A stretch of DNA of 64,000 nucleotides, from contig CM060068.1 of the NCBI GenBank assembly GCA_030533445.1, forward strand, positions 49,317,159 to 49,381,158, written 5' to 3'. This DNA comes from Cyprinodon diabolis (Eukaryota > Chordata > Actinopteri > Cyprinodontiformes > Cyprinodontidae). The position numbers and the translations under genes are program-made. This document shows positions 29,253 to 51,650 of this stretch, in pieces. Within the stretch, counting starts at the first letter, position 1; each line of letters begins with the position of its first letter. Below the pieces are notes generated by a model. The model was not told the DNA's origin, made no database searches, and saw only the letters and a list, made by a program, of their open reading frames with translations.

Positions 29253-29690
29253 ATCATTGCAGGGTCTTCTGTCCTAAGAGCCACCCATTTGGTCATGTTC
29301 TGTTAATAAAAGATACTGCTGTTCTAGTGGGGGGCAGAAAGGTGCTGAAATGTGAACAGGCAGCCTTTCTCCTCATACGACCAACTGCTGTTACAATTAA
29401 ATGTGACATCTTAGTCACATAGCACCTGTTTTCTGGATACACCCTTGTTGGTAAAAGACGGCGAAAAAAGCGGCGAAATTGGTGCTTGTTGTGGGTGAAT
29501 TTCAAATTTAACGTGATAATTAGATGACAAGAATGCCACTATTAGATGCTGCAGCTTCAGAGGACTTGCAGGGAGCCCATCCTGGACAGGGATTCAGAAC
29601 AGACAGAAGAGGCAGGATCCAGGCATCCGAAAGCTCCAGGCAGGTTCAGAGTCTGAAAGATTCCGGAAGCGTGACCAGGCGGACACACAC
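29253..29690. other. Mixed repeat DNA, no gene
   Basis: Holds an AATAAA near 29308 and sequence leading to the 16-bp array. The part from about 29530 (gcagcttcagagg to cacacacaggagc) probably belongs to the LTR element that hosts the array. Confidence 0.4.
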
Positions 29691-29996
29691 AGGAGCAGAT
29701 GGGATCAGGAGCAGACAGGATCAGGTGCAGATGGGATCAGGTGCAGATGGTATCAGGGGGAGACGCGATCAGGAGCAGACGGGATCAGGAGCAGGTAGGA
29801 TCAGGTGCAGACGGGATCAGGAGCAGACGGGATCAGGAGCAGATGGGATCAGGAGCAAATGGGATCAGGAGCAGACAGGGTCAGGTGCAGAGGGGATAAG
29901 GTGCAGACGGGATCAGGGGCAGACGCGATCAGGAGCAGACAGGGTCAGGTGCAGAGGGGATGAGGTGCAGACGGGATCAGGTGCAGACAGGATCAG
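29691..29996. repeat. 16-bp tandem array, left segment
   Basis: About 19 copies of gatcaggtgcagacgg and variants. The same unit makes up 44995-47010. The break after gatcag fits the right-hand resumption in mid-unit, so an ERV insertion split one array. Confidence 0.92.
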
Positions 29997-30531: not shown

Positions 30532-32303
30532 TTAAACTTTCAGGGCAGTGGGAGTGGTAAGTACAACTGTAAAGGGGCCTTCCCTACGAGGTTCGTTCCA
30601 CTGACGTCTAAAGACTCGTATGAACACACTGTCACCAACTTGAACGTCCCTGACGTCCACTGGAATGTGTGTCTCGTCTCGGCTGTGAGCTGCTTTCACC
30701 TGTTGAAATATAAGTCTGTGAATGCGGGTTAAGGATCTGAGGTAATCCCCCAGTTCACGCTCGAGCTGTGCCAAGGAAACCTCCTCCTGCTGGGGTCCTC
30801 GAACCTGTGGGAGAGGCATTGGTCGACCTGTAAGCATTTCATGTGGGGTAAGATGGGTTATTCGGTTAGTTTGAGAACGCATTGCCATCAGTGCAACAGG
30901 CAAGTGTCGTCTATTATTGTCTTCTTGACGACTTAAAATTGAAGCTAAGTTTTGTAAAATTCAAAGTTCTTAAAAAGCAGCAAAAGTCTCAAACAAAGAT
31001 CCAAAAATTCAGGCAGAGGCAGCTGAGTCCAGGTCCAGGGTCTTTATTGCCAAAAACAGCACATTCACACTGAGCTGGTCACCGGTGAGCATCAGCTAAC
31101 AAATGATGAAAACAGCTCCCTTTTATACATTTCTTATCAATGGAAAACTTCTTCAGAACATATTTTTTATATATTTAAACGTCAGTCTTTGGTAAAGGTC
31201 ACATTATCATTTATCTGCAAATCACGATGACATTCGTAGCCACATCACATTCTTGTGAGAGCAGTCTCTCAGGCCATGAGGACATCTGGTGCACTTAAAT
31301 CAGAAACTTATGACAGTTCAATCACAAACATGTTGAAACTAATCCTTTCCCTACTTCAAGCCATGTCAGTCTGGCCTAGTGTTCCCCCTTGTGTCCCAGT
31401 CAAAGCATCACCCTTTCTGTGACCAGTACTGCACAGTGTGCCTTGAAAATAACAACTCTATTTATCACAAGTTGTATGGCCAAATTTTGCTGAGCTGGGC
31501 AACCTTGACATGTCAAATATTTCATTTTTTATGAGGGTGCTTTCCTATCACTAAGGGCCTCAACCCTGCGTTTTCCTGCAGATTCCACTCCTCTAGAGCC
31601 AGGTGCAACAGTTACACACACTCATTGCTCTGTTTTTCTCCTCTTGGCCTTGAATGGCTCTTATAACAGTATTTGTGAAAACAACTTTAAACTTATAAAA
31701 CATTAGCTTTATTTTATTCTTATGATTAGTGCAGATTAATACACAACACAAGGCGTCAACCCATGTTAAACGGTTGTTGCTGTCAGCAAGTATCTTCGCT
31801 ATCTTCGATTTCAGAATTCCGTTAGCTCGTTCCACCGATGCCTGTGACTGGGGATGATACACACAACCAAATTTCTGTTTTATGCACAACTGTTGGAACA
31901 TTTGCTGGATCACCTGTGAAACAAAATGAGGTCCGTTATCAGATGATATAGGGATATCAGGCATGCCAAATCTGGGAAAAACTTCTTTACACAAAAACCT
32001 TGCTGCTGCTTTGTGGTTGTTCCTAGCAGTGGGGCATGCCTCCACCCATCTGCTAAACCTACAAACAACCACCAGCATATACCTCTTTCCCTGAACACGA
32101 GTTATCATGTCAACGTAATCCATAATCAGATGGCGGAACGGACCGTCTGGCATGAGGATATGTGCTAAGGGTTGTGTGAACATTTTACGCACATTATACT
32201 TAGGACAATGCGGGCATAAGGCCAGTTCTCTGTCTACCATAGGTGTCATATAAGGTGACCACCAGACTGCCTGTAGCTTTCGATAACTTGGGCTCGTGAA
32301 CAA
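30532..32303 (-). pseudogene. ERV integrase split by a solo LTR
   Basis: The N-terminal zinc-binding part has CPHCPKYNVR; the core has MDYVDMITRVQGKRYM, ISSDNGPHFVSQVIQ and QASVERANGILKSK, so D, D and E are intact with 35 residues between the last two. At 31748 the frame is interrupted by the LTR 30905-31748; it continues at 30900 in the same phase (LTPHEMLTGRPMPLP, then a GPF-type end RREGPFTVVLTTPTALKV). Joined to Pol it is one frame out: a slip near 32260 separates it from RNase H. Thus the integrase is inactive, by one slip and one insertion. Confidence 0.88.
30905..31748 (-). mobile_element. Solo ERV LTR inside integrase
   Basis: 844 bp, TG...CA, with a perfect 4-bp duplication caag (30901-30904 and 31749-31752). 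An AATAAA near 31047 (as TTTATT on +) sits where R ends. It is related to the 5' LTR at 43400-44994: shared motifs are gctgggc(a/t)(g)caaccttga and the edges ttaatacacaaca/ttaattcactaca. So a member of the same ERV group inserted in the older provirus. Confidence 0.88.
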
Positions 32304-35300
32304 TGATCAGGTCCATGCATTATTTTAATGGCGGTTGGTAACAAAGACAGAGGTAGTACAAAATGCCCTTGAAAACTACGCCACAACCCATCGTGGGGGC
32401 GTGATAAGCGTGTCGCCCCCCTTTGCACCCACAGACGTTTTTCCGCTTCAGACACTCTATTCTGGGCTTCTATTAACGAAGCTAGATTAGTAATAGGTTC
32501 ACATTCAGCTACATGAACCATCTCCCCCTGCACTGCAGGTCCTGTAGCTTCTTTGGCTGCTTCATCTGCCAAGTTATTTCCAATGGCGATGGGTGTTTTA
32601 GCCGTCTGATGAGCAGCACATTTTACAATAGCTAACGCAGATGGAAGTTGCATAGCTTGTATTAATTCCACGATAGCTTGCCCATGTGTTACAGGGGTAC
32701 CATCTGTTCGAACAAATCCTTGATGTTTCCAGATGCTTGCGTTTATATGGCATACCCCGTAGCCATATGCACTGTCAGTATAGATGGTCACTCTTTTACC
32801 AGTAGCCAATTTACATGCAGCTGTTAATGCTTTTATCTCTGCCAATTGGGCAGAGCAAGGTTGGTCAAGGCTCACCGACTGCACCTTGGTATAGGTCCCA
32901 TCGGGGTTAAGTTGGACTATTCCATATCCAGCTCTATTCCCTGTTTCACCTCTGACGCATGATCCGTCTACAAACAGAGTCAGATCAGATGGGATTGGAT
33001 GATTGTATAAGTCCTCCCTTACCTTCATGAAGGTGTCCGTATCCTGGAGACAATGATGGGGCTCACCTTCTGTGGGCAATACCATTATTGTGGCTGGGTT
33101 GATTGTGGTACAGCGTTGTATTGTTAAGTCAGGTGCTGAAAGCAGAACTTCATAACCAGTTTGACGAGCTTGAGTTATCACAAAGCGCAGGCTTGTGAGC
33201 AGTGCATGTAATTGATGTGATTTATACAAAATAACAGGGTGGCCCATAGTAATAATTGAGGCTTTTTTATATGCGAAGACTGCTTCCGCCAAGCCCTTGT
33301 AGCAGGGAGGCAGGCCTTCTTTGACACCATCCAATTTTGTGCTATAATAAGAAATTGGCTGTTTACCTGTTGGGGTGTCTTGCATCAATACTGCACATGC
33401 ATACCCTTGTCGCTCAGCCACATGCAGATGGAATGGTTTGCCGTAATCTGGATTGGCCAGAGCAGGAGCAGTTTGGAGATCTTCTTTCAGCAGCTGGAAC
33501 GCACCCTCTGCCTCGTCTGTCCATTGCAATTGAGCCGACTGGTGTCCTTGACCCGCGGCTTTAATCAGTGCTCTCAGTGGAGCCGTTTTGATGGCATAAA
33601 CACACACCCACGGTCTGCTGTAACCTGCCATGCCAAGGAAAGACAACATGTGACCAACAGTCCGAGGTTTGGGCAATTGAGTTATGGCTTCTAGTTGGGA
33701 CGGTGCAATACACCTCTTGTCCCCACTGAGTTGCCTGCCGAGATACTCCACTGTTTGCTGGCAGAATTGCAATTTTTGTTTACTTACTTTGTGTCCTCCT
33801 TCTGCCAATGCAGTCAACACTGTAATGGAGTCTCTCTCACACTGCTCTTTAGAAGCAGAACAAATCAAAATGTCATCAACATACATCAACATTGTAGATG
33901 GTATGTCAAGGTGATTTAAGTCATTTGCCAGTACACGATTGAAAATTGATGGCGAGTGTACAAAACTCTGTGGTAAACGCGTATAAGTATATTGTTGGCC
34001 TTTGTACGTAAATGCAAACAAATACTGGGAATCTGGATGGACCGGTACACTGAAAAATGCAGAACACAGATCTATCACAGTAAACCATTTTGTGCCTGGG
34101 GGTGTATTACTCAGTAGTGTGTGGGGGTCTGGTACTACTGGTATTTCTTCTGCTACAATAGCATTAATTAATCTTAGATCATGGACTAGTCTGTAGTCAT
34201 TACTGTTGGGCTTTCTGATGGGAAAAATTGGTGTGTTACAGGGACTTACTGTTGGTTTAAGGACTCCTGCTGTTTCTAATCCTGTAATGATTGGCTGTAT
34301 TCCTTCTATCGCTTTTCTTTTTAGTGGGTACTGTCTTTCGAAGGGTAATTTAACATTTAGTTTGATAGTGAATTTGGTGGGGTCAGCTGATTTTACTAAT
34401 CCTACATCTGTTTTACTTTTAGACCACACCTGCTCTGGAACTTGTTCTAATAATGGTTCATGCTCGTTGGCCACTGCCATTTGTCTTTTCCCAGGAACTT
34501 TAATGTGTTCTGCTATTACTTCGTCAGTTTGTGAATATGAGATTTTGAAAAACCTTCCATTTTTTGACATGCTAATGCGGTTCCAGGCTGTGTCAACCCA
34601 TTCGGTGACGTGCTTGGCTTCTTGAACCATGGGTCCTAGGTCATGTGACTCATACATGTCTGCAATCAGCAATGTGACATGTGGTGCTGAATTAGTAACC
34701 TGGAACCATTCTGCTACATCTTTATCAGGAAATGTGACAACAGCTGCAGCTCCTTGTGGTCCAACCATTATGTCAGCGTATTGGATGACAGTTGTTTTGT
34801 TGTTAATTTCTTCATCCCAACTTTTCTCGTAGTCTTCGTGTGTTTTGCCTTTGTCATAAAACATGGTACAATGGAGAGGGGGAAAAGGTTCTTTAGATAT
34901 GTCGTAGTTATTCATTATCAGGGGTCTCCATGTTTCCCACTCCAGTTGGTAGAAGGAAGTTGGTGACGTGAGTTTCAGCCAAAATACTTGGTTTTCTAGT
35001 TCATGACTTGTTGCCTGGGGGGTCATTTGTGGGCCTAGTGGCATCATGTAGGCTTCATTCTTGTCTGTTGCTTCAAAAGAAATTCCATTAGGGGTACATT
35101 TGATTTTAGCATTGAGCTGGCACAGCACGTCTCTACCCAGCAGATTAATTGGCGTATCTTCTGAGTACAGCAGTGGTGCATACACAGTCTTTTCACCTAT
35201 GATCATGGGAACTGGCTCAGTCATGGGTATTATTTGGGTCTTCCCAGAGAAACCTACTGTTCGAATCTTTGATGCTGAGAGAGGCAGGCCAATTCCACTT

Positions 35301-35446
35301 TTCCCTATACAGGAGTAGGCCGCTCCTGTATCAATCATGAAGCGATGATGGCTGTCATATATAATGACATCAATGGTGGGTTCTGTTTGTGGGTGTTGGG
35401 TTAATACCGGTAGAATGGCCTCTCCATCAGGTTTCTCTGGGCACCC
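32246..35446 (-). CDS. ERV Pol: protease, 2H-like domain, RT, RNase H
   Basis: Open from the codon after the UAG; counted from the first Met (35338): protease 1-90 with IDTGAAYS, a flap-side region and INLLGRDVL; residues about 117-270 an extra domain with HCTM (His156) and HVTL (His220); RT about 320-560 with Asp423 (IDLCSAFF), LPQSFVHSP and YVDD (488-489); RNase H about 780-935 with Asp791, Glu834, Asp855 and Asp925. All catalytic acids are present. The frame ends at 32246 because of a slip before integrase. It is expected to be made by UAG readthrough as Gag-Pol and cut by the protease. The unbroken 1066 codons imply a fairly young insertion, although gag is damaged. Confidence 0.88.
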   Translation of the reverse strand, partial: GCPEKPDGEAILPVLTQHPQTEPTIDVIIYDSHHRFMIDTGAAYSCIGKSGIGLPLSASKIRTVGFSGKTQIIPMTEPVPMIIGEKTVYAPLLYSEDTPINLLGRDVLCQLNAKIKCTPNGISFEATDKNEAYMMPLGPQMTPQATSHELENQVFWLKLTSPTSFYQLEWETWRPLIMNNYDISKEPFPPLHCTMFYDKGKTHEDYEKSWDEEINNKTTVIQYADIMVGPQGAAAVVTFPDKDVAEWFQVTNSAPHVTLLIADMYESHDLGPMVQEAKHVTEWVDTAWNRISMSKNGRFFKISYSQTDEVIAEHIKVPGKRQMAVANEHEPLLEQVPEQVWSKSKTDVGLVKSADPTKFTIKLNVKLPFERQYPLKRKAIEGIQPIITGLETAGVLKPTVSPCNTPIFPIRKPNSNDYRLVHDLRLINAIVAEEIPVVPDPHTLLSNTPPGTKWFTVIDLCSAFFSVPVHPDSQYLFAFTYKGQQYTYTRLPQSFVHSPSIFNRVLANDLNHLDIPSTMLMYVDDILICSASKEQCERDSITVLTALAEGGHKVSKQKLQFCQQTVEYLGRQLSGDKRCIAPSQLEAITQLPKPRTVGHMLSFLGMAGYSRPWVCVYAIKTAPLRALIKAAGQGHQSAQLQWTDEAEGAFQLLKEDLQTAPALANPDYGKPFHLHVAERQGYACAVLMQDTPTGKQPISYYSTKLDGVKEGLPPCYKGLAEAVFAYKKASIITMGHPVILYKSHQLHALLTSLRFVITQARQTGYEVLLSAPDLTIQRCTTINPATIMVLPTEGEPHHCLQDTDTFMKVREDLYNHPIPSDLTLFVDGSCVRGETGNRAGYGIVQLNPDGTYTKVQSVSLDQPCSAQLAEIKALTAACKLATGKRVTIYTDSAYGYGVCHINASIWKHQGFVRTDGTPVTHGQAIVELIQAMQLPSALAIVKCAAHQTAKTPIAIGNNLADEAAKEATGPAVQGEMVHVAECEPITNLASLIEAQNRVSEAEKRLWVQRGATRLSRPHDGLWRSFQGHFVLPLSLLPTAIKIMHGPDHCSRAQVIESYRQSGGHLI
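34529..34990 (-). other. Putative 2H phosphoesterase-like domain in Pol
   Basis: About 154 residues between protease and RT. Two motifs of the form H-x-T-hydrophobic occur: HCTM at 34862-34873 and HVTL at 34670-34681, each at the end of a predicted strand (PLHCTMFYD and APHVTLLIAD), with a helix (THEDYEKSWDEEI) and a strand (ADIMVGPQGAAAVVTF) between. Two such motifs are the hallmark of 2H phosphoesterases. The His-His spacing, 64, is shorter than the about 80 I know for typical members, so the call is tentative. It does not look like dUTPase, the other enzyme retroviruses carry in pol. Confidence 0.45.
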
Positions 35447-35449: not shown

Positions 35450-36189
35450 TAGCCAGTACGCCTCAATTCAATTCAATTCAGTTTATTAATATAGCGCCAA
35501 ATTCACAACACATGTCATCTCAAGGCACTTTACAGTTCAACCAGATCATACAGTCAAATTGATACAAAGTTTTCTATCTAAGGAAAACCAGTTGATTGCA
35601 TTGACTCATTGACTCAAATACAATCCCTCACACTAAGCATGCTTGTAGCAACAGTGGAGAGGAAAAACTCCCTTTTAACAGGAAGAAACCTCCAGCAGAA
35701 CCAGGCTCAGTGTGAGCGGCCATCTGCCGAGGCCGACTGGGGTTCAAGGAGACAGAAGCAGAGATACAAAAAGCAGCTGTAAAAGGCGGCCCCGTCCAGG
35801 AAACACACAGCCAGGCAGACGAGCTCCAAGGCAGCTCCCATGCCAGAGGATGAAGAGAGCACATCCAGTTAGTCACAGTCAGAGAAACAGGACCACACTG
35901 GAAAACAGGCCGATCTCCAACATCTACAAACAAGGGTGTTGATGGAAGCAGCACAGCTGATGTTTCTTTCCTGGATGACGTCTGAGCCAAACAGGAACAG
36001 ACGAGGCAAAGCTACTCTGAGGAAAAGCAGATAGAGCAGAACGTTAGAGATTGAACAAACAGATTCTGCAGAATAGGAGAACAGAGAGAGAATAAAGCAG
36101 AATGATGAAATGGGGGTCCCCATGTCCGCCAAAAGTCTAAGCCTATAGCAGCATAACTTTAAAGACAGCTCAGGATAACCTGAGCCACC

Positions 36190-39100
36190 CTAACTATAAG
36201 CTTTATCAAAAAGGAAAGTTTTAAGCCTAGTCTTAAAAGTAGACAGAGTGTCTGCCTCACGGACTAAAACTGGTAGTTGGTTCCACAGGAGAGGAGCCTG
36301 ATAACTAAAAGATCTGCTTCCCATTCTACTTTTAGAAATTCTAGGAACCACTAGTAAACCTGCAGATTGAGAGCAAAGTGCTCTGTTAGGAACATAAGGA
36401 ACAATCAGATCTCTGATATAAGATGGAGCTTGGCCATTTAAGGCTTTATATGTGAGAAGGAGGATTTTAAATTCTATTCTGGATTTAACAGGAAGCCAAT
36501 GAAGAGAAGCCAGGATAGGAGAGATATGATCTCTCTTTTTAATTTTCATCAGAACTCTGGCTGCAGCATTTTGGATCAGCTGAAGGCTTTTAACTACAGT
36601 TTGTGGACTTCCTGATAGTAAAGAATTACAATAGTCCAGCCTTGAAGTAACAAATGCATGGACTAGTTTCTCAGCATCACCCCTGGACAGGAGATTGCTC
36701 ATTTTTGCAATATTCCTCAGATGAAAGAAGGAAATTCTAGAAACCTCTTTGATATGGGATTTAAATGACAGGTCCTGATCAAAAATAACACCAAGATTTT
36801 TTACTTTATTATCTGAAATCAGTTTAATCCCATCCAAATGAAGTGACTGGCTAATCAGCTTCTTTTTCAGAGACTCTGGTCCAAAGACTATAACTTCTGT
36901 TTTGTCTGCATTCAGAAGCAGAAAGTTAAGAGTCATCCAGGTTTTTATGTCTTCAGACATGCCTGTAATCTATGTAATGGGTTAGCTTCATCTGGATTAT
37001 AGACAGATATAGCTGGGTATCATCAGCATAACAGTGGAAATTAATCCCATGCTGTCTAATAACTCTACCAATTGGGAGCATGTATAAAGTAAAGAGAATT
37101 GGTCCTAGCACTGATCCCTGTGGTACTCCACAGGTAACCTTTGAGCGTGTTGAAGATCTATCATTAACATAAACAAACTGAATTCGATCAGATAGATAAG
37201 ATTTAAACCAGTCTAGTGCTGTTCCTTTAATTCCAACAAAATATTCAAGTCTTTCTAAAAGAATATTATGGTCAATTGTATCAAATGCAGCACTAAGATC
37301 CAACAGGATGAGCACAGATACAAGTCCATTATCTGAGGCCATGAGAATATCATTAGTGACTTTCACCAGAGCTGTTTCAGTGCTATGATGAGCTCTGAAG
37401 CCAGACTGAAACTCTTCAAAAAGTTCATTATGGTGTAAGTGGTCGCAAACCTGTTTGGCAACTACTTTCTCAAGAATTTTGGATAAGAAAAGAAGATTGG
37501 ATATAGGTCTATAATTAACCAAGTCATCTGGGTCAAGAGACGGTTTCTTAAGCAGAGGTTTAATTACAGCAACCTTAAAAGCTTTAGGTACATATCCCTG
37601 TAACAGAGATAGATTAATCACATCTAAAATGGAGGAGGAGATCAAAGGGAATACCTCCTTAAATAACCTGGTTGGAACTGGATCTAACATACAAGTTGAA
37701 GGCTTAGATGAAGACAATAATTTTGCTAATTCAGAAAGTTCAACTGGATCAAAGCAGTCTAAACCCGGTTCAGATTCCATGACTACCTCAGGTACAATTG
37801 CGGATAGAGGACTGCTTATGATCTTATTTTTAATAAGATCAATCTTATTTATAAAGAATCCCATAAAATCATTGCTGCTAAGAGCAGGTGGAATGGACGG
37901 TTCAACAGAGCTATGGCTCTGGGTGAGTTTGGCAACTGTATTAAAAAGAAATCTAGGATTATTCTTATTCTCCTCTATTAATGAGGAGAAGTATGCTGCT
38001 CTTGCTTTACAAAGGGTCCTCTTATACAGCAGTAAACCATTTTTCCAGACTAGGAAGGACTCCCGCAGGCCTGTGGAGCGATATTTTCTCTCCAGTTTCC
38101 TAGCATTTTGCTTCAAAGTACGCAGCTCTAAATTTAACCAAGGAGCAAGCTTTCTATTTTCAACGGTTTTCATTTTCAAGGGAGCTGCGTTGTCTAAGGC
38201 AGTACGCAGAGAACTAGCAACCCCATCAACAAAATCATCAACCTGTGAAGGGGAATAAGCTATGCTTTTGCACTCTGCAGCACTGCTCAGCGACACAGAG
38301 GAGAGAGAAAGTGAAGCAGATTCTTTAAAATGTATAACTGCACTATCTGATAAAGATCTACTAAAATGTAACCTTCTTTTGGGGGAGGAGAACTCTGTTA
38401 AAGTAATCCTGAAGGTTATTAGAAAGTGGTCAGAGAGGACAGGGTTGTGAGGAAATACTGTTATTTCTTCACATTCTATGCCGTATGTCAGCACAAGATC
38501 CAAAGTATGAAGATGAGAATGTGTGGGACTATTCACATTTTGAACAAAGCCAATAGTGTCTAAGATAGCATTAAAGGCTGCTCTTAAGCTATCGCCTTCA
38601 ATGTCAGCATGGATGTTAAAATCTCCCACTATGATGACCCTGTCAGTATTTAATACCAAATCAGAAAGGAACTCTGAAAACTCATCTAAAAATTCAGAGT
38701 AAGGACCTGGCGGACGATACAAAGTTACAAAAAGAAGAGGTTTTCTTGCCTTGAAATTTGGATGAGGGAAATTAAGGGTTAAATGTTCAAAAGAGTTGTA
38801 GGTATTAACTGTTTTGGGAGTAATCAGTAAGTCAGACTGGAAGATTGTTGCTACTCCTCCTCCTCGCCCAGAACTTCTGGGTATGTGAAAATTTAAATAG
38901 CTTGAAGGAGTTGCCTCGTTTATGCTCACATAATCCTCTTGCTGCAGCCAGGTTTCTGTAAGGCAAAACAAGTCAATGTGATTATCACAAATCAAGTCAT
39001 TAACTAGCAGACTTTTAGAGGAAAGCGATCTTATGTTAAACAGACCGCATTTAATTGTTTTAACTTTTTCCCCAATTGGAGTTATTTTGATTTTAATTAG

Positions 39101-39250
39101 ATTATCATGATTTACTCCTTTGGGAATCTTTGCTAATTTATTAGATTTTGGTCGTGGGCAAGACACTGTCTGGATGGAGTAAAGAGTGGGTAACAGTAGA
39201 GAAGCTGCAGAGATGTGTGTTAAACTACAACTCTGCTTCCTGGTCTGCAC
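36190..39250 (-). pseudogene. L2 ORF2: endonuclease and reverse transcriptase, one frameshift
   Basis: The first 765 residues carry an AP-like endonuclease ([37 protein letters not shown]) and RT ([74 protein letters not shown]). The frame then slips one base after YADD, near 37000, and the C-terminal part (RLDYCNSLLSG, IRDLIVPYVPNRALCSQ) goes on at 36190-36960. All catalytic residues are seen, so only the slip prevents a complete ORF2. The copy at 49302 has the same slip. Confidence 0.9.
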
Positions 39251-39259
39251 CCTGGGTGG

Positions 39260-40123
39260 TCAGGGTTTTGGAGGACTAATAAATGTGGCCAGATTCCTAG
39301 AAAGAAGAGCTGCACCATCCAAAGTGGGATGGATGCCGTCTCTCCGAATCAGACCAGGCTTTCCCCAAAAGGATTGCCAATTATTAATGTAGCCCACGTT
39401 GTTTTCAGGACACCACCTAGACAACCAGCGGTTGAATGACGACATGCGGCTAAACATGTCATCACTGGTCAGATCAGGGAGGGGACGAGAGAAAATTACG
39501 GAGTCCGACATTTTTTTGGCAAACTTACACACCGAAGCAACACTAATTTTAGTGACCTCCGATCGGCGTAACCGGGTGTCATTACCACCAGCGTGAATAA
39601 CAATCTTACTGTATTTAACCTTATCCTTAGCCAGTAGTTTCAGGTAGGATTTGATGTCGCCCGTTCTGGCCCCCGGCAAACATTTGACTATGGTCCCTGG
39701 TGTCTCTAATGCCACGTTTCTGACTATGGAGCTGCCAATCACCAGAGTGGGCTTCTCAGTGGGTGTGTCACTGAGTGGGGAAAACCGGTTAGAAACGTGA
39801 ACGGGTTGGTGGTGACTAGTGGGCAGAGATCCACGACTACGCTTTCTGCGTACAGTTACCCAATCGCCTGGCTGCTCAGGCACTTTTGGAGGACAGCTAC
39901 GTGGGGGGCCTACTTTAACTCCTGGATGTTCAACAGCCTGAAGCCTGGATTCTAACTCTGACACCCTCGCCTCCAAAGCTACAAAAATACTACACTTATT
40001 ACACATCCCATTATCACTAAAGGAGGCAGAGGAATAACTGAACATCTGACACAGAGAGCAGGAGAGAGGAGAGGAAGAAGGAAGAGTTGGAAAAGAGTCA
40101 AGGGAGGGAGAGAGAGAAGCCAT
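39260..40123 (-). CDS. L2 ORF1: zinc-finger, coiled coil, SGNH esterase
   Basis: 287 residues, intact. A Cys pair C22/C25 and C41/C44 suggests a small zinc finger (PHD/RING-like spacing), followed by a coiled coil ([18 protein letters not shown]) and an SGNH hydrolase fold: GSSIVRN with the nucleophilic Ser, HAGGNDTR (Gly-x-Asn-Asp block), and DGIHPTLDG with Asp and His. Esterase ORF1 proteins are known from CR1/L2 LINEs and bind RNA and perhaps membranes. ORF2 starts nine bases downstream. Confidence 0.9.
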
Positions 40124-44994: not shown

Positions 44995-47010
44995 AGGGGC
45001 AGACACGATCAGGTGCAGACGGGATGAGGTGCAGACAGGATCAGGTGCAGACGGGATCAGGGGCAGACACGATCAGGTGCAGACGGCATCAGGCGCAGAC
45101 AGGATCAGGAGCAGACGGGATGAGGTGCAGACAGGATCAGGTGCAGACGGGATCAGGGGCAGATGCGATCAGGAGCAGACGGGATCAGGAGCAGGTAGGA
45201 TCAGGTGCAGATGGGATCAGGTGCAGATGGGATCAGGTGTAGACAGGATCAGGAGCAGACGGGATCAGGAGCAGACGGGATCAGGAGCAGACAGGATCAG
45301 GTGAAGACAGGATCAGTTGCAGACGGGATCAGGTGCAGACGGGATCAGGTGTAGACAGGATCAGGAGCAGACGGGATCAGGAGCAGATGGGATCAGGAGC
45401 AGACAGGATCAGGTGAAGACAGGATCAGAAGCAGATGGGATCAGGAGCAGATGGGATCAGGGGCAGACGCGATCAGGTGCAGACGGGATCAGGTGCAGAC
45501 AGGATCAGGAGCAGACAGGATCAGGAGCAGACAGGATCAGGTGCAGAAGGGATCAGGTGCAGACGGGATCAGGGGAGACGCGATCAGGAGCAGATGGGAT
45601 CAGGAGCAGACGGGATCAGGAAAAGACGGGATCAGGTGCAGATGGGATCCCATGCAGATGGGATCAGGGGCAGACAGGATCATGAGCAGACGGGATCAGG
45701 AGCAGACGGGATCAGGAGCAGACGGGATGAGGTGCAGACAGGATCAGGAGCAGACGGGATGAGGTGCAGACAGGATCAGGTGCAGATGGGATCAGGTGTA
45801 GACAGGATCAGGAGCAGACGGGATCAGGAGCAGACGGGATCAGGAGCAGACAGGATCAGGTGAAGACAGGCTCAGTTGCAGACGGGATCAGGTGCAGACG
45901 GGATCAGGTGTAGACAGGATTAGGAGCAGACGGGATCAGGAGCAGATGGGATCAGGAGCAGACAGGATCAGGTGCAGACAGGATCAGGGGCAGATGGGAT
46001 CCGGAGCAGATGGGATCAGGTGCAGAGGGGATCAGGAGCAGACGGGATCAGGTGCAGACGGGATCAGGTGTAGACAGGATCAGGAGCAGACGGGATCCGG
46101 AGCAGATGGGATCAGGTGCAGAGGGGATCAGGAGCAGACGGGATCAGGTGCAGACGGGATCAGGTGTAGACAGGATCAGAAGCAGACGCGATCAGGTGCA
46201 GACAGGATCAGGTGCAGACAGGATCAGGAGCAGACAGGATCAGGTGCAGACGGGATCAGGGGAGACGCGATCAGGAGCAGATGGGATCAGGAGCAGACGG
46301 GATCAGGAGCAGACGGGATCAGGTGCAGATGGGATCACATGCAGATGGGATCAGGGGCAGACAGGATCATGAGCCGACGGGATCAGGAGCAGACGGGATC
46401 AGGTGCAGACGGGATCAGGAGCAGACGGGATCAGGAGGAGACGGGATGAGGTGCAGACAGGATCAGGTGCAGATGGGATCAGGAACAGATGGGATCAGGT
46501 GCAGAGGGGATCAGGGGCAGACGGGATCAGGGGCAGACGCGATCATGTGCAGACGGGATCAGGTGCAGACAGGATCAGGAGCAGACAGGATCAGGTGCAG
46601 ACGGGATCAGGTGCAGACGGGATCAGGGGAGAAGCGATCAGGAGCAGATGGGATCAGGTGCAGATGGGATCACGTGCAGATGGGATCAGGAGCAGACGGG
46701 ATCAGGTGCAGACGGGATCAGGAGCAGACGGGATCAGGTGCAGATGGGATCAGGGGCAGACAGGATCATGAGCAGACGGGATCAGGAGCAGAAGGGATCA
46801 GGTGCAGACGGGATCAGGAGCAGACGGGATCAGGAGCAGAAGGGATCAGGTGCAGACGGGATCAGGAGCAGACGGGATCAGGGGCAGACAGGATCATGAG
46901 CAGACGGGATCAGGAGCAGAAGGGATCAGGTGCAGACGGGATCAGGAGCAGACGGGATCAGGTGCAGACGGGATCAGGAACAGATGGGATCAGGTGCAGA
47001 CAGGCAGGCT
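44995..47010. repeat. 16-bp tandem array, right segment (~126 copies)
   Basis: About 2 kb of gatcaggtgcagacgg and variants (gatcaggagcagacgg, gatcaggggcagacgc). Sixteen is not a multiple of three, so all three + frames read through the same sixteen-residue period and are open without coding. A GATC site recurs every unit. Confidence 0.95.
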
Positions 47011-49301: not shown

Positions 49302-51650
49302 TGTCCGCGATTGTACCTGAGGTAGTCATGGAATCTGAACCGGGTTTAGACTGCTTTGATCCAGTTGAACTTTCTGAATTAGCAAAATTATTGTCTTCAT
49401 CTAAGCCTTCAACTTGTATGTTAGATCCAGTTCCAACCAGGTTATTTAAGGAGGTATTCCCTTTGATCTCCTCCTCCATTTTAGATGTGATTAATCTATC
49501 TCTGTTACAGGGATATGTACCTAAAGCTTTTAAGGTTGCTGTAATTAAACCTCTGCTTAAGAAACCGTCTCTTGACCCAGATGACTTGGTTAATTATAGA
49601 CCTATATCCAATCTTCCTTTCTTATCCAAAATTCTTGAGAAAGTAGTTGCCAAACAAGTTTGCGACCACTTACACCATAATGAACTTTTTGAAGAGTTTC
49701 AGTCTGGCTTTAGAGCTCATCATAGCACTGAAACAGCTCTGGTGAAAGTCACTAATGATATTCTCATGGCCTCAGATAATGGACTTGTATCTGTGCTCGT
49801 CCTGTTGGATCTTAGTGCTGCATTTGATACAATTGACCATAATATTCTTTTAGAAAGACTTGAATATTTTGTTGGAATTAAAGGAATAGCACTAGACTGG
49901 TTTAAATCCTATCTATCTGATCGAATTCAGTTTGTTTATGTTAATGATAGATCTTCAACACGCTCAAAGGTTACCTGTGGAGTACCACAGGGATCAGTGC
50001 TAGGACCAATTCTCTTTACTTTATACATGCTCCCAATTGGTAGAGTTATTAGTCAGCATGGGATTAATTTCCACTGTTATGCTGATGATACCCAGCTATA
50101 TCTGTCTATAATCCAGATGAAGCTAACCCATTACATAGATTACAAGCATGTCTTGAAGACATAAAAACCTGGATGACTCTTAACTTTCTGCTTCTGAATG
50201 CAGACAAAACAGAAGTTATAGTCTTTGGACCAGAGTCTCTGAAAAAGAAGCTGATTAGCCAGTCACTTCATTTGGATGGGATTAAACTGATTTCAGATAA
50301 TAAAGTAAAAAATCTTGGTGTTATTTTTGATCAGGACCTGTCATTTAAATCCCAGATCAAAGAGGTTTCTAGAATTTCCTTCTTTCATCTGAGGAACATT
50401 GCAAAAATTAGAAATCTCCTGTCCAGGGGTGATGCTGAGAAACTAGTCCATGCATTTGTTACTTCAAGGCTGGACTATTGTAATTCTTTACTATCAGGAA
50501 GTCCACAAACTGTAGTTAAAAGCCTTCAGCTGATCCAAAATGCTGCAGCCAGAGTTCTGATGAAAATGAAAAAGAGAGATCATATCTCTCCTATCCTGGC
50601 TTCTCTTCATTGGCTTCCTGTTAAATCTAGAATAGAATTTAAAATCCTCCTTCTCACATATAAAGCCTTAAATGGCCAAGCTCCATCTTATATCAGAGAT
50701 CTGATTGTTCCTTATGTTCCTAACAGAGCACTTCGCTCTCAATCTGCAGGTTTACTAGTGGTTCCTAGAACTTCTAAAAGTAGAATGGGAGGCAGATCTT
50801 TTAGTTATCAGGCTCCTCTCCTGTGGAACCAACTACCAGTTTTAGTCCGTGAGGCAGACACCCTGTCTACTTTTAAGGCTAGGCTTAAAACTTTCCTTTT
50901 TGATAAAGCTTCTAGTTAGAGTGGCTCAGGTTATCCTGATCTATCTCTATAGTTCTGCTGCTATAGGCTTAGACTGCTGGAGGACATAGGGACCCCTTTT
51001 TCATCATTCTGCTTCATTCTATCTCTGTTCTCCTATTCTGCAGAATCTGTTTGTTCAATCTCTAACGTTCTGCTCTCTCTGCTTTTCCTCAGAGTAGCTT
51101 TGCCTCGTCTGTTCCTGTTTGGTTGTGACGTCATCCAGGAAAGAAACATCAGCTGTGCTGCTTCCATCAACACCCTTGTTTATAGATGTTGGAGATCGGC
51201 CTGTTTTCCAGTGTGGTCCTGTTTCTCTGGCCGTGGCTGGGTGGATGTGCTCTCTTCATCCTCTGGCATGGGAGCTGCCTTGGAGCTCGTCTGCCAGGCT
51301 GTGTGTTTCCTGGACGGGGCCGCCTTTTACAGCTGCTTTTTGTATCTCTGCTTCTGTCTCCTTGAACCCCAGTGGGCCTCGGCAGATGGCCGCTCACACT
51401 GAGCCTGGTTCTGCTGGAGGTTTCTTCCTGTTAAAAGGGAGTTTTTCCTCTCCACTGTCGCTACAAGCATGCTTAGTGTGAGGGATTGTATTTGAGTCAA
51501 TGAGTCGATGCAATCAACTGGTTTTCCTTAGATAGAAAACTTTGTATCAATTTGACTGTATGATCTGGTTGAACTGTAAAGTGCCTTGAGATGACATGTG
51601 TTGTGAATTTGGCGCTATATAAATAAACTGAATTGAATTGAATTGAATTG
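49302..51650 (+). mobile_element. L2 LINE, 5' truncated, inside Rex3
   Basis: About 97% alike by eye to the full-length L2; starts inside ORF2 and ends in four GAATT units. A 5-bp duplication tgtcc (49302-49306 and 51649-51653) is likely, but overlaps the L2 edges. Confidence 0.85.
49307..50919 (+). pseudogene. L2 ORF2, RT part, same frameshift as 36190-39250
   Basis: 49274-50164 holds the RT ([72 protein letters not shown]). At about 50110 the frame slips and resumes at 50173 to 50919 with the C-terminal region, ending FLFDKASS. No endonuclease. The slip is at the same base as in the minus-strand full-length copy. Confidence 0.88.

Follow-up and report, generated by a model that had tools for sequence, protein, structure and literature searches.

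A predicted CNPase-type 2H phosphoesterase domain between protease and reverse transcriptase in the Pol polyprotein of a fish endogenous retrovirus

What lies between the protease and the reverse transcriptase (RT) in the Pol polyprotein of an endogenous retrovirus (ERV) of the fish Cyprinodon diabolis? We analyzed a window of 64,000 nucleotides (GenBank assembly GCA_030533445.1, contig CM060068.1, positions 49,317,159 to 49,381,158) that carries on its minus strand an uninterrupted Pol open reading frame (ORF) of 1030 codons (32246-35338). Between regions matching the Pfam families RVP and RVT_1, this frame holds an extra domain of about 170 residues that matched no Pfam family at E values up to 10; downstream of it, the Pfam domains follow in the order RVT_1, RT_RNaseH, and RNase_H. 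A preliminary description of the locus had noted a segment in an unbroken frame that belongs to neither protease nor RT and carries a pair of H-x-T motifs spaced 64 residues apart, and had proposed that it is a 2H phosphoesterase. Both observations hold, the motifs being HCT and HVT at that spacing, and the proposal can be sharpened: judged by predicted fold and conserved motifs, it is very probably a CNPase-type 2H phosphoesterase domain. The piece analyzed comprised 206 residues (34469-35086), in which the span delimited earlier (34529-34990) corresponds to residues 33-186 and the best structure matches to residues 27-197.

We compared two AlphaFold models of the domain with solved structures. 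The best match by Z score was in each case the catalytic domain of CNPase (15.8 and 17.8), followed by goldfish RICH, and 2H enzymes of the LigT type scored lower against both models. The top matches being 2H enzymes with CNPase and RICH closest, the domain is predicted to have the 2H fold; a predicted fold unlike 2H/LigT, which the preliminary description would have taken as refutation, was not seen. Both H-x-T motifs lie on strands of the models. The second model was the better one, with a predicted local distance difference test (pLDDT) score of 76.7. In a Foldseek search against BFVD, the polyproteins of walleye epidermal hyperplasia virus 1 (E 2.3e-10) and walleye dermal sarcoma virus (WDSV; E 8.9e-10, TM by query 0.59, root-mean-square deviation 17.2 over a 222-column row) were the second and third viral matches.

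The viral matches also bear on a different function, in which the domain would destroy 2′,5′-oligoadenylate (2-5A) and so blunt the OAS-RNase L pathway, like rotavirus VP3 and coronavirus NS2. The superfamily and the type of motif are shared, and coronavirus ORF4b, rat coronavirus ORF2, and a torovirus polyprotein were among the BFVD matches, but at E values of 4.5e-3 and above they fell far below the walleye retroviruses in the same library. Teleosts are not known to have OAS, which we counted against this function. Moreover, the nidovirus and rotavirus 2H enzymes have been traced to AKAP7-like genes (PMC10835031, in the part available), whereas the domain in the window is nearest to CNPase, as judged by fold matches among solved structures and in BFVD. 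Because the domain appears nearer to CNPase than to these AKAP7-like enzymes, we consider 2-5A cleavage unlikely.

We searched twice for homologous proteins, with the domain region as query; the first search yielded four relatives among 157 candidates and the second seven among 206, including the query and one of the first four. The resulting ten-row alignment contains the window and nine homologues, from Takifugu (two), Sparus, Oreochromis (a record also labelled Mustela), Epinephelus (two), and Myripristis, with two lacking a name; identity to the window ranges from 35 to 57%, and for seven of the nine homologues a Pfam RT domain is precomputed. HCT keeps its histidine and threonine in all nine rows that reach the motif (P0006 starts just past it), as does H[VI]T in all ten. 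Since the motifs are conserved in homologues of other fish, they are more than chance; free variation of these residues, which the preliminary description had named as evidence against its proposal, was not seen. Past the second motif, 10/10 rows share a block E-S-H-x-x-G-P-M, from which the 23 CNPases described below differ before the shared glycine. The window also has a third H-x-T, 23 residues past the second motif, that is absent from the other nine rows. We regard the predicted CNPase-branch 2H domain as a regular component of Pol in one group of fish ERVs.

For sequence comparison, we assembled 23 CNPase catalytic domains, picked for spread from 120 listed (351 found); among 2H families, the profile comparison with hhalign was confined to CNPases. 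The ten-row profile matched the 23 CNPases with an E value of 7.1e-5 and a score of 37.0 over 73 columns in which the two motifs line up, and matched mouse CNPase with an E value of 1.3e-4 over 79 columns. None of 200 column-shuffled CNPase controls came near 37.0 (best 21.6, mean 13.9), and the reversed alignment scored 11.7. HCT and H[VI]T occur in all 23 CNPases, 75-84 residues apart, compared with 63-64 in the ERV domains. The preliminary description had cautioned that the spacing is short; so it is, but as an objection it is answered by the reduced length of the loop that precedes the second motif. From the second histidine to the next conserved glycine, the distance is 15 residues in ERV rows and CNPases alike. 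At the position of CNPase Phe235, five residues past the first histidine, an aromatic residue stands in 10/10 ERV rows and 23/23 CNPases. Against this background, an ordinary linker between protease and RT with two coincidental motifs has next to nothing left to recommend it: the domain does lack a Pfam match, but its motifs are conserved, its fold was matched in two models, and its profile score exceeded that of every one of the 200 shuffles.

We also searched for the domain in the 1.22-Gb host assembly. All 150 of the 791 candidates that were scored matched, giving at least 150 copies, with the copy in the window the best match and the other copies 87-93% identical in protein among the matches listed. 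A second search with the domain of P0009 recovered one family again, at places overlapping the first list and with many open frames of 1550 codons. From the list of 150, we picked 20 stop-free copies by hand, a choice biased toward intact copies; among these and the window, 188 of 210 pairs were less than 97% identical, and the median ratio of nonsynonymous to synonymous substitution rates (dN/dS) was 0.22. Both histidines and both threonines were kept in 18 of the 20. In the second search, HCT and HVT were present in all 30 copies fetched, two of which contained a stop, and the median dN/dS between the window and the 28 stop-free copies was 0.26 (L035 of this set and L026 of the hand-picked set are one place). 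Divergence between copies is mainly synonymous.

Several results weigh against a CNPase-type enzyme. The first AlphaFold model is middling, at pLDDT 70 (the best of five; the others 56-60), and its residues 71-80, which hold the first motif, are at 51. The hhalign probability was only 63% against the 23 CNPases and 54% against mouse CNPase; the Pfam CNPase family (PF05881) matched 0/10 members at E values up to 10, and a PDB sequence search with the profile gave no match. In a midpoint-rooted tree of 29 rows (23 CNPases and six ERV rows, four of the ten being omitted as incomplete), the ERV domains and the CNPases lie over eight changes per column apart. Two residues ahead of the second histidine, where 23/23 CNPases have arginine (Arg307), 0/10 ERV rows do, and Tyr168 has no clear counterpart in the nine ERV rows compared, in an alignment that places the N-terminal strand poorly. 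The copies found in the host genome all come from one family, and in two of the 20 hand-picked copies a catalytic-type residue has been replaced (L012, first histidine to arginine; L028, second threonine to isoleucine). Finally, for the copy in the window together with the five stop-free copies closest to it, the domain dN/dS is 0.59 (15 pairs), higher than the 0.22 of an RT piece (three pairs; three of eight copies in frame). Changes after insertion would raise the dN/dS of the nearest copies and may explain the 0.59. Separately, two weak PDB matches to eIF5A, obtained with homologue P0003 only, were taken as chance, and a scan of IMG/VR with the alignment gave 28 pattern matches, none confirmed.

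Some of these results could also mean that the 2H fold was retained for binding or structure, for example as an RNA-binding spacer or RT cofactor, and that enzyme function was lost. The replacement of Arg307 in every row, the missing counterpart of Tyr168, and the great distance from CNPases would fit such a loss. In CNPase, Phe235 and Tyr168 serve substrate binding and Arg307 contributes electrostatics, yet R307Q has wild-type kcat and Y168S retains activity (PMC4643303, in the part available, which also describes the β5-α7 loop as unique to CNPase among 2H enzymes). Both histidines and both threonines are kept across fish and in 30/30 copies, seemingly beyond what binding by itself would need. 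We therefore think a purely structural role improbable and predict that the ERV 2H domain is catalytically competent, which we hold to be likely.

Proteins encoded within Pol are made in Gag-Pol amounts and packaged. The 2H domain, encoded inside Pol, would be expected at that level and inside the virion, either cut free or left joined to protease and RT. It would then hydrolyze 2′,3′-cyclic phosphates on RNA ends or nucleotides, giving 2′-phosphates as CNPase does (PMC4643303 and PMC3290555, in the parts available). A possible substrate is RNA cut by metal-independent RNases, which carries 2′,3′-cyclic ends; that such RNA ends are the main substrate is a prediction to which we give an even chance. 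The preliminary description had suggested countering nucleotide second messengers or processing RNA ends, both of which are candidate purposes. If the domain acts as predicted, Pol would contain an additional enzyme for RNA ends or nucleotides, something uncommon in retroviral replication machinery. More tentatively, the CNPase-type 2H domain could be a further standing Pol enzyme of a broad group of fish retroviruses, captured once before the split from the walleye viruses and acting in the virion on RNA ends with 2′,3′-cyclic phosphates. Because a fish ERV family with many copies has conserved the domain together with its two catalytic motifs, the biochemistry is open to direct testing.

The features of the Pol frame are listed in Table 1. 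An ORF at 31593-32303 on the minus strand, integrase-like by eye, lies in a different frame and overlaps the Pol ORF at its end; pol of the window's copy therefore looks broken at that point. Between the gag-like ORFs and pol (35463-40123) is a stretch 97% identical, in inverted orientation, to 51109-51646, and ORFs at 36190-40123 resemble a non-LTR (long terminal repeat) retrotransposon when judged by eye; the provirus therefore appears interrupted. It is flanked by arrays of related 16-base units, at 29690-29996 (about 19 copies) and 44995-47001 (about 126 copies), which are only candidates for LTR membership. Neither a repeat search nor BLAST between the flanks revealed an LTR pair, the 16-base minisatellite being all that was seen on both sides.

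Table 1. Features of the Pol ORF and its predicted 2H domain, in window coordinates
Feature	Position	Strand	Basis
Retroviral aspartic protease, ORF residues 1-79	35102..35338	-	Pfam RVP, E 1.5e-5
CNPase-like 2H phosphoesterase domain (predicted), residues 27-197 of piece 34469-35086	34496..35008	-	Two AlphaFold models and CNPase profile match
First catalytic-type motif, H-C-T	34865..34873	-	Kept in 9/9 rows reaching it, window included
Second catalytic-type motif, H-V-T	34673..34681	-	H[VI]T in 10/10 rows, window included
Reverse transcriptase	33731..34219	-	Pfam RVT_1, E 2.3e-29
RNase H	32546..32986	-	Pfam RNase_H, E 1.3e-19

While the 2H identity proposed in the preliminary description stands, its novelty does not: the description knew of no such retroviral domain. 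The abstract of Mazumder et al. is said to name retroviral polyproteins already. PMC9503650, with reference to Mazumder et al. 2002, reports 2H domains in certain retroviruses, WDSV among them by name, and states that of the 2H domains in RNA viruses, some might process 2′,3′-cyclic ends and others counter 2-5A. The available part of PMC4977317, citing Basta et al. 2009, reports ORFs for CNPase or macro domains in some epsilon-like fish ERVs. From these statements, a 2H or CNPase module in fish retroviruses was already known as a kind, and the window adds a new example with its place between protease and RT and a predicted fold of the CNPase branch. The terms "phosphodiesterase" and "CNP" are absent from a zebrafish ERV paper (PMC8672886), as are "phosphodiesterase" and "phosphoesterase" from a WDSV review (PMC3185748) and "retrovir-," "walleye," "CNPase," and "fish" from the main text of PMC10835031. 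In a limited literature search that covered sources in part, no retroviral 2H domain with a tested function came to light.

Among known systems, CNPase (PF05881) and goldfish RICH resemble the ERV domain in predicted fold, and the CNPases also share its HCT and H[VI]T motifs, the aromatic residue after the first histidine, and the distance from the second histidine to the glycine; the ERV domain differs from CNPase in its remote sequence, its shorter loop ahead of the second motif, its lack of Arg307, and its location inside retroviral Pol. Retroviral dUTPase is likewise an extra enzyme of cellular type within Pol, with a fold and chemistry unrelated to those of the 2H domain. The 2H domain of WDSV and the CNPase ORFs of epsilon-like ERVs share with the window's domain a 2H or CNPase module in fish retroviruses, as cited in PMC9503650 and PMC4977317, and may also share its place between protease and RT and its lineage. 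The 2′,5′-phosphodiesterases of the rotavirus VP3 C terminus and coronavirus NS2, virus groups for which PMC9503650 also reports the superfamily, belong to the same 2H superfamily but differ in their AKAP7-like origin (PMC10835031, likewise in part), and coronavirus fold matches to the domain in the window are weak.
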